This document shows positions 16,355 to 24,849 of a DNA stretch of 37,384 bases, in pieces. The position numbers and the translations under genes are program-made. Source of the DNA: Planktothrix serta PCC 8927 (lineage in GTDB: Bacteria > Cyanobacteriota > Cyanobacteriia > Cyanobacteriales > Microcoleaceae); contig NZ_LR734871.1 of assembly GCF_900010725.2 (NCBI RefSeq), positions 122,496 through 159,879 on the forward strand. The letters are read 5' to 3'. The notes under the pieces are model-generated. The model was not told where the DNA came from. It did no database searches and was given only the letters and a program-made list of their open reading frames with translations. The first letter of the stretch is position 1, and the number at the start of each line of letters is the position of its first letter.

Positions 16355-16756
16355 CTACCAAATGTAACAAAGCACTTCACCACCAAGTCCTTGGCGTCGA
16401 GCTTCGCGGTCAGTCATTACACCATGAGACGTGGAAATAATCGCCACGCCAATACCACCTAATACGCGAGGGAGTTCTTTGCGGTTGCGATACACTCGCA
16501 AACCCGGTCGGCTGACTCGCTGTAATTTTTGAATGGTGGGAGCCTTGGTTTTGGAGTTGTACTTGAGAGAGACAACCAAGAATTTTTTAATGCCTTCGCC
16601 TGTTTCTTCAAAATCTGCAATAAAGCCTTCGTGTTTTAGAACTTGGGCAATACTACGAGTCATTTTTGTAGCAGGAATTTGTGTAGTTTGATGCCGCGCC
16701 ATGCAAGAATTGCGAATGCGCGTCAACATATCCGCAATGGTATCGTTTGCCGCCAT
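16355..16756 (-). CDS. rpsH: 30S ribosomal protein S8
   Basis: S8 binds the central domain of 16S rRNA early in assembly. The 133-residue protein starts [20 protein letters not shown] and ends [20 protein letters not shown] then VLCYIW, the standard S8 signature. The ATG at 16756 has GAGGA about six bases upstream. It follows rplE by 22 bases; rpsN, which lies between these two genes in E. coli, is absent here. Confidence 0.98.
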
Positions 16757-22932: not shown

Positions 22933-23622
22933 CTACTTGCCACCGACTATGTTAGCGGGTGCGATACTCAACAAACCGCCGGGTTTGCCAGGAACAGCCC
23001 CTTTTACTAACAGCAGGTTACGTTCAGGATCGACACGCACAACGATTAATTTGCGAGTGGTGACTTGGCTGGCTCCGTATTGTCCGGCCATGCGTTTCCC
23101 AGGATAAACCCGGCCTGGGGTGGTTCCAGGGCCGATAGAACCGGGCTGACGGTGGTTTTTTGAACCATGAGCCATAGGGCCACGTTTAAAGTTATGGCGT
23201 TTTTGATAACCGGAGAAGCCACGACCCATGCTGGTTCCACTCACATCTACCAGTTGTCCTGGGGTGAACATATCAGCTTTGAGTTGTTGGCCTAATTCAA
23301 AGTTTCCGGCTTCATTGACGCGGTACTCTTTAAGGTGGCGCATAGGAATGCCGCCAGATTTGGCTAAATGTCCCTGTTCCGCATTGCTGAGATACTTATT
23401 GACCTCTTTGTCGGGAGATTTTTTTGTATTTAGCTTGCGTTTTTTATCAGGAACTTCACCGTACCCTAATTGGATGGCGGTGTAGCCGTCCGTTTGTTTG
23501 GTTTTAATCTGGGTAACAATGCAAGGCCCTGCTTGAATGACGGTGACGGGAATCGCTTTCCCGCTTTCGACTTCAAACACTTGGGTCATGCCGACTTTTG
23601 TGCCGAGGATACCTACAGACAC
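22933..23622 (-). CDS. rplC: 50S ribosomal protein L3
   Basis: L3 starts large-subunit assembly and reaches the peptidyl transferase centre. The 229-residue protein starts [20 protein letters not shown] after a GTG start codon at 23622, and has the signature [20 protein letters not shown] with [26 protein letters not shown] lies about ten bases upstream. It is the first gene of the operon: rpsJ (S10) is not in front of it. It is preceded by a leader of about 490 bases and a strong promoter. Confidence 0.98.
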
Positions 23623-24115
23623 TTAAACTAGCCTCTCTTTTCTACGCATTACAATAAAGTTTGGATCGACCGTGAGGAAGAATCCCCTTGCTGAAAACCC
23701 ACAAGACCTTGATTAAAGATGAGTTGTGGATGTTTAAACACACCAAAACAGTCTCCCGCCATTAAAGGAGGATAAACCCTGGGGAGCTTAGAACGCTTTC
23801 CGGCTATCAACAAGTTTTAAGCGGTTTGTGGATCGAGGATTGCCCTCGATACTGCTTTTATGTCGCTGGGACTTGAGCAGCAAGCTACTCAGTATCCTTT
23901 CCTGACCGGTTGTTAAACCTTATGCAGATCACTGGGCTTACGCCGAATTTGTGTAGGATTTAACGTCAGTAGGGTGCTGTTTCCTTGCGGATTCGGCTTC
24001 ACTGATTTCTGTCCAATCACTGACTCCTTGAGGGTGAACACCGTTAACGCGATGTTCTCACCGCCGGGAAAATCAGTCTTTTGGAAGTCAACAGCATTTG
24101 CCCGATTAGCGACAA
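23623..24115 (-). promoter_or_regulatory. long structured 5' leader of the ribosomal operon (candidate r-leader RNA)
   Basis: The predicted transcript start near 24115 leaves about 490 untranslated bases before rplC. Read on the minus strand, ACTGATTT (24077-24070) pairs with AAATCAGT (24008-24001). Inside it, GGTG plus AACA pair with TGTT plus CACC (24062-24053 with 24040-24033, two-base bulge). Next, GCCGAAT (23997-23991) pairs with ATTCGGC (23948-23942), and ATCGAGG pairs with CCTCGAT around a five-base loop (23850-23832). Successive long-range stems of seven to eight pairs are unlikely to be all chance. An autoregulatory or attenuation element is inferred; I recognise no known riboswitch. 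Confidence 0.5.
23913..24020 (-). CDS. possible leader ORF in the rplC leader
   Basis: From a GTG at 24020 a 35-codon frame reads MIGQKSVKPNPQGNSTLLTL and ends with NPTQIRRKPSDLHKV and TAA at 23913. AAGGAG lies only three bases before the GTG. The same frame is open for 77 codons (from 24146), upstream of any ATG, TTG or GTG that would be within the expected transcript, and its upstream part (ANAVDFQKTDFPGGENIALT) also reads like protein. It overlaps the complementary segments of the leader, so protein coding and RNA pairing may be alternative explanations. I recognise no family. This is a hypothesis only. Confidence 0.25.
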   Translation of the reverse strand: MIGQKSVKPNPQGNSTLLTLNPTQIRRKPSDLHKV

Positions 24116-24121
24116 TTTTTG

Positions 24122-24150
24122 ATTGTAGGGTAATTTTAACAAACTGTCAA
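24122..24150 (-). promoter_or_regulatory. strong sigma-70 type promoter of the ribosomal operon
   Basis: On the minus strand a perfect -35 TTGACA (24150-24145) is separated by exactly 17 bases from TACAAT (24127-24122), five of six matches to the -10 consensus. It faces rplC and predicts a start site near 24115. It is the best promoter match that I found in the window. Confidence 0.8.
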
Positions 24151-24792: not shown

Positions 24793-24821
24793 ACACTGTT
24801 CTTAACTTTTAAGTCGAACTT

Positions 24822-24849
24822 AAGTTGGGTTAACCCAACTTATTTTTTT
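24822..24849 (+). terminator. intrinsic terminator of ndhN
   Basis: AAGTTGGG and CCCAACTT form at least eight base pairs around TTAA, followed by one A and seven T residues. It begins 30 bases after the ndhN stop. This is a textbook rho-independent terminator. Confidence 0.92.

Follow-up and report, generated by a model that had tools for sequence, protein, structure and literature searches.

A candidate S8 operator in the rplC leader of cyanobacteria, at the head of a merged S10-spc operon

Leaders of the E. coli S10 type bind L4. Control of the spc operon by S8 is described for E. coli and V. cholerae in a 2024 review, which calls spc regulation unknown in B. subtilis or other species and phylogenetic studies not advanced, and which states that S8 of E. 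coli destabilises the mRNA of the first two spc genes (PMC10931766). The S8 site in helix 21 of 16S rRNA contains the triples A595-(A596-U644) and (G597-C643)-U641 and the invariant A642, on which a peptide bond at the STS stretch of S8 stacks; the spc mRNA has a counterpart triple, A+80-(A+81-U+11) (PMC4176348). A leader of the rplCD operon (cluster 5), structured by prediction only, was reported from three marine picocyanobacteria and likened to the S10 operon, and the description of this cluster gives neither motif nor ligand (Axmann 2005, PMC1242208). The strings "cyanobac" and "rpsH" are absent from the main text of Eckert and Weinberg 2020 (PMC7247131), as are cyanobacter, rplC and rpsH from the main text of PMC11109978, and the leaders listed in PMC2662882 include rpl10 and rps2. 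Our literature search, whose scope left most subscription papers outside, found no cyanobacterial S8 leader.

The leader described here occupies the same genomic place as that of cluster 5. It lies in a window of 37,384 nt (the whole stretch of DNA analysed) from Planktothrix serta PCC 8927, on the minus strand, where rplC (L3; 22933..23622, start codon GTG at 23622) is the operon's first gene and rplD (L4; 22280..22918) the second. The run reads L3, L4, L23, L2, S19, L22, S3, L16, S17, L14, L24 and continues L5, S8, L6, L18, S5, L15, secY, adk, S13, S11, rpoA, L17, in a listing that excludes short genes such as L29; rpsH, which encodes the proposed ligand S8 (16355..16756), is its 13th ribosomal-protein ORF and shares strand and gene run with rplC. 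Pfam confirms L3, L4, S8 and the divergent NdhN, and the remaining gene names were read from ORF translations. An earlier note on this DNA had placed the rplC start at 23622, which the ORF and its GTG codon bear out, and had remarked that S10 is missing from the operon head; rpsJ is indeed absent from the interval that separates rplC from the divergent ndhN. The RplC sequence is 99% identical to that of an Oscillatoriales bin and 93-94% identical to those of three Planktothrix or Oscillatoriales records.

The promoter that the note had proposed, TTGACA-17-TACAAT at 24150-24122 on the minus strand, is present, with 11 of 12 consensus matches (-35 box, 24145..24150; -10 box, 24122..24127). Promoter-like sites between 22500 and 26000 are not in excess of chance (5 vs 4.5 expected). 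The -10 box is identical in relatives L001-L004, and a motif finder applied to the 5' flanks of 108 upstream regions returned two conserved boxes, T(T/A/G)GACA and one resembling TATAAT, the latter with RRYYGYCGCY after it; a -10/start site with a score >=9 is found in 98 of the 108. An RNA start near 24115 agrees with this conserved promoter, and the predicted leader RNA would be ~490 nt long (23623..24115, minus strand). A Shine-Dalgarno-like GAGAGG (23632..23637, minus strand) stands upstream of rplC, and there is one weak terminator-like site in the leader, at 23770-23753 on the leader strand. The sequence UUGUAAUGCGUA occurs at 23643-23654, and a UGUARYGYGUA-like block precedes the Shine-Dalgarno in many of the listed loci. 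On the plus strand, the perfect hairpin TAAGTTGGGTTAACCCAACTTA followed by a T run at 24821-24842, directly after ndhN, is likely a terminator.

Taken as a whole, the leader had been claimed to be structured, which our folding does not uphold: its fold z is -1.27, with 8 of 100 shuffles equally good, and thus its overall structure is not beyond chance. At least four stems had also been described; exact inverted repeats of 8, 7, 7 and 7 nt do exist, none of them being P1 or P2 (the two helices treated below), and the stems were given no coordinates, which makes a one-to-one match with the repeats impossible. We compared the four exact repeats within the four close relatives: compact species lack the ~210-nt insert that holds two of them, a third follows P1, and the fourth would rival P2. 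This last, a 7-bp GATACTG/CAGTATC pairing (23890-23896 with 23848-23854), is retained in three relatives, two of them via G-U pairs, yet it is broken in L004 and we rejected it. The suggestion that the leader falls outside known families agrees with a search of Rfam 15, which gave 0 matches in the window at the gathering cut-off and two weak matches under permissive settings; the E. coli spc and S10 stretches likewise gave 0 Rfam matches.

The conserved part of the leader is a 29-nt hairpin, P2 (23869..23897, minus strand). When the whole leader was used as a BLAST query against 388 genomes of the class, 20 matched besides its own, all inside query positions 219-277, which is the P2 region, and the hairpin is seen at the corresponding place in the named rplC loci (n=80). 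In 41 gap-free copies (40 distinct), 94.5% of pairs are kept and the covariation score is 0.393 vs 0.210 for shuffled alignments (0/500 as high), while controls slid along the alignment stay at or below 0.155; in a broader set the score is 0.439 vs 0.218 (0/500). Cells changed on both sides number 45 vs 15.6 shuffled. They fall in 7 of 11 pairs, a number unremarkable when taken alone, being matched in 46/500 shuffles and, for the broader set, in 75/500. Because the pattern used to choose the aligned copies prescribes the core bases, selection accounts in part for how constant the core is in this alignment; the covariation of the inner stem is unaffected. Inner stem and outer R-Y pair covary, which puts helix on both sides of the core, with P1 beyond. 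The earlier note had proposed looking for covariation among relatives, and it is found for both P1 and P2.

The hairpin is widespread in the class. Our model R1 finds it in the window and in 77 of the 80 named rplC loci at E<=0.001; model R2 adds L033 and L049 and still misses L035, where by eye a P2 copy carries a long apical insertion. The 150 listed R1 hits and the 150 listed rplC rows could be joined for 85 genomes, and among these listed matches 82 of 85 R1 hits precede rplC on the same strand, at distances of 182-426 nt (median 233); the joined hits away from rplC (L162-L164) fall in other genes or next to them, and we regard them as chance. A further 30 genomes were picked because a strong R1 hit was missing from the listing; at E<=0.01, R1 matches upstream of rplC in 17 of them, and R2 adds L136, L138, L139, L140 and L155, of which all except L138 were in its training set. 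E-values here are rough and related genomes are not independent, and a tally of 286/388 genomes at E<=1 was set aside because chance can reach that threshold.

We collected 111 rplC upstream regions of up to 700 nt (the 80 named, the 30 chosen and the window), and RGAWACU..AAGUCY with a spacing <=95 occurs in 108 of them, L149, L158 and L159 being doubtful copies, vs 24 of 2220 shuffled regions; with a spacing <=35 the figures are 102/111 and 12/2220. A stricter scan that demands a perfect three-pair inner stem finds 91/111, with 11/2220 in shuffled regions and 1/111 on the opposite strand. The small-genome family f16, which we guess to be the marine picocyanobacteria, is uneven: L155 has a clean copy, and the sites in L157, L158 and L159 are unclear. 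P2 is absent from the deep-branching L160 and L161, which we guess to be Gloeobacter-like.

The identity of the motif was recognised only after it had been found. The constant bases of P2 are GAWACU on the 5' strand and AAGUC on the 3' strand, and written as the S8 core of 16S rRNA (A595 A596 G597 U598 C599 / G639 A640 W641 A642 C643 U644) they agree in the window at 11 of 11 positions, with W=U. GAUACU (23891..23896, minus strand) is thus equivalent to 16S 639-644, AAGUC (23870..23874) to 595-599, and the base at 23893 to A642. Helix 21 has the same core bases and bulges as P2, with the strand order swapped and the hairpin loop closing the other end; in the organism's own 16S rRNA the order is AAGUC...GAAACU, opposite to P2. 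E. coli rplE carries GAAACU at +6..+11 and then AAGUC at +80..+84, so the core of P2 is that of the E. coli mRNA operator in the same order; the E. coli mRNA encodes S8, as the predicted transcript from rplC would. Position W corresponds to U641 of helix 21 (PMC4176348); the organism's 16S and the E. coli mRNA have A there, and the leaders have U or A. The window's S8 shares 52% identity with its E. coli counterpart and retains the STS stretch; the solved chains that resemble it include one whose sequence also occurs in entry 1s03, which we take to be the S8-spc mRNA complex.

The resemblance to the E. coli operator has its bounds. That operator is missed by both R2 and a scan with a generalised core; its loop is long and the pair adjacent to the core is mismatched, so the likeness lies in the core bases and their order. 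It overlaps the rplE start and has a long interstrand loop, whereas P2 forms a compact hairpin close to the predicted RNA 5' end, upstream of rplC and combined with P1, and heads the S10 as well as the spc genes. P2 overlaps no translation start, lying 182-426 nt from rplC. An E. coli-type S8 site sought at the window's own rplE start has a mismatched core. We count the P1-P2 leader as a putative S8 operator in which one described feature, the overlap with a start codon, is absent.

P1 is a helix that joins the predicted RNA 5' end to the base of P2. The RRYYGYCGCY motif just after the -10 box can pair with the bases directly after P2; in the window the two strands are UGUCGCU (24108..24114, minus strand), at the inferred 5' end, and AGCGACA (23861..23867, minus strand). 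The strands change in step, as in UUGGCGC/GCGCCAA of L026, CGUGACU/AGUCACG of L156, ACCGC(U)GCC/GGCGCGGU of L038 and CGGU(G)CUU/AAGACCG of L146. The MAFFT alignment A4 of the compact leaders (34 kept, L035 and L135 left out; duplicates L068 and L074 out of A4) misaligned the P1 3' strands, so P1 was tested by duplex energies. Over 92 distinct rows of the 98 usable among 108 (10 rows were set aside for their weak start scores, and then 6 as identical pairs), the cognate duplex energy is -7.82 vs -6.70 for permuted partners, reached in 0/20000 permutations. The compact leaders, with P2 within 12 nt (n=30), give -10.37 vs -8.12 (0/20000); leaders with an insert (n=62) show a small gap, -6.59 vs -6.07, with 365/20000 permutations as good. 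Between the P1 5' strand and P2 the window has such an insert of ~210 nt (23898..24107, minus strand), common to L001-L004 and reduced to a few nt in compact species. An RNAalifold consensus of the window and L001-L004 contains both P1 and P2, with P2 invariant. In L160 and L161 the leader is short and shows a promoter-like site and a P1-like hairpin without any S8 hairpin in the last 60 nt before rplC; in L160 the hairpin reads, by eye, GUGGCC-UUGG-GGCCAAC. P2 may have been inserted into the P1 loop or lost from it.

The same core recurs in another class of the phylum, in front of the S8 gene itself. A phylum search with R1 (194 genomes, 70 of them with E<=0.01) had hits outside the class in 11 genomes, 10 of them in family f45, which we guess to be Gastranaerophilales. 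We examined six of the 11: three (G425, G478, G393) lie at rpsH, with the hairpin ending 16-18 nt before the rpsH start and L6 and L18 frames following, and three (L171-L173) lie inside other reading frames and were rejected. With R2, 146 other-class genomes yielded 21 loci, all taken as chance except those of G425 and G393, which adjoin ribosomal genes like those of the window. S8 was found in 55 of 60 genomes of f45, and we examined 30 loci among these; L5 stands upstream of rpsH at 22 of these, which means that some other gene usually comes first. The generalised core, in which the two outer pairs are free to covary, is present at 24 of the 30 loci, no more than 160 nt before rpsH, vs 4/1500 shuffled and 0 on the opposite strand. 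Before other genes it is found at 0/8 L24, 0/18 L5, 1/26 L6 and 0/26 L18 loci, control genes with <120 nt of upstream DNA being dropped. The 639-599 pair is G-C in 12 of the 24 copies, U-A in 11 and C-G in 1, and 12-75 nt separate the end of the core from the start codon of rpsH as set by our own start-finding rule. Of the six loci where it was missed, L224 at least does hold a strict-pattern copy, in which one outer pair is broken. Since the core precedes rpsH in f45 and not the other genes compared, the element goes with S8 in either place. In L196 two S8-core hairpins stand in tandem, ~110 and ~40 nt before rpsH, possibly a double operator; by eye a similar upstream copy is present in some other f45 loci.

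We propose that the P1-P2 leader, which heads the merged S10-spc operon, serves as an autogenous operator for S8, a reading that we consider highly probable on four grounds: P2 covaries around the core of helix 21 and of the spc operator, the likewise covarying P1 connects the base of P2 with the inferred 5' end of the RNA, rpsH belongs to the gene run that the leader heads, and in f45 this core stands immediately before rpsH. S8 in excess of free 16S rRNA would bind P2 as it binds helix 21, and the bound S8 would then lower expression of the whole S10-spc operon. Binding to P2 is the step of which we are most confident, as very probable; that S8 represses the operon is probable. The earlier note had expected that control here would need a different RNA from the L4-binding S10 leader of E. 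coli, and the S8-like core in the leader speaks for this.

How repression would act is a more tentative matter. In f45, where the site is close to the ribosome-binding site, direct blocking would be natural. For the rplC leaders we compared, by constrained folding of the window and 44 leaders drawn at random, the P2 core forced with the core forbidden; the accessibility of the rplC start hardly shifts (difference 0.015, sd 0.054, 45 leaders), and long-range control of that start by P2, looked for in this way, was not found. In the energy model, the exact bulged register of P2 has a median probability of 0.017. Because S8 of E. coli destabilises the spc mRNA, our first guess is reduced rplC translation combined with faster decay of the mRNA from its 5' end, a route that we regard as possible while leaning somewhat against it.

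We weighed two other readings. The operon position would suit an operator for L4 (or L3), a counterpart of the E. coli S10 leader, which likewise is a long leader before S10-operon genes, and this is the comparison drawn for the rplCD leader by Axmann 2005 (PMC1242208). We find it highly unlikely, since the constant bases of P2 equal the S8 core; searching the organism's rRNA operon by pattern and by eye gave no close 23S counterpart and nothing convincing as mimicry of an L4 site; and in f45 the core precedes rpsH and not L24, L5, L6 or L18, the genes compared. R2 has no match in the E. coli S10 leader at E<=1, a weak point against an L4 operator given that R2 also misses the E. coli S8 operator. 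Alternatively, P1 might seal the 5' end and P2 cap it, so that the structure protects the mRNA and has no protein ligand. P1 does begin at the inferred start, with P2 only a few nt on in compact species, and L160 keeps, by eye, a P1-like hairpin without P2; a stabiliser, however, needs neither the S8-core bases nor a recurrence before rpsH in another class, and we consider this reading very unlikely.

The whole-leader fold z of -1.27 would suit a lineage-specific structured leader without function. For P1 and P2 that reading is refuted by their covariation and class-wide position, and for the leader at large it is scarcely credible; for the insert it may hold.

A further reading would be that S8, a single small-subunit protein, sets the output of the merged S10-spc-alpha operon throughout photosynthetic cyanobacteria by way of a P1-P2 switch at the 5' end, acting on decay or elongation without covering a start codon, and that the operator stayed tied to S8 though it moved between rplC and rpsH; we offer this as a serious possibility that falls just short of probable. 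The two positions suggest an operator that kept its ligand while the operon layout changed. For most of a phylum, the proposal specifies a ligand, where it would bind and which bases should be changed in mutants, making the control of cyanobacterial ribosome synthesis testable in laboratory strains, and P1-P2 would supply Rfam with a missing family.

Other conserved structure is present nearer to rplC in one group. In the Microcoleus group (15 loci, alignment A6) a conserved hairpin, CAAGAG-CAAG-CGGATTG...CAATCCG-AAAC-CTCTTG, lies ~25-75 nt before rplC, and a shorter counterpart is possible in Planktothrix. Microcoleus also has a hairpin at the position of the 23832-23850 repeat of the window.
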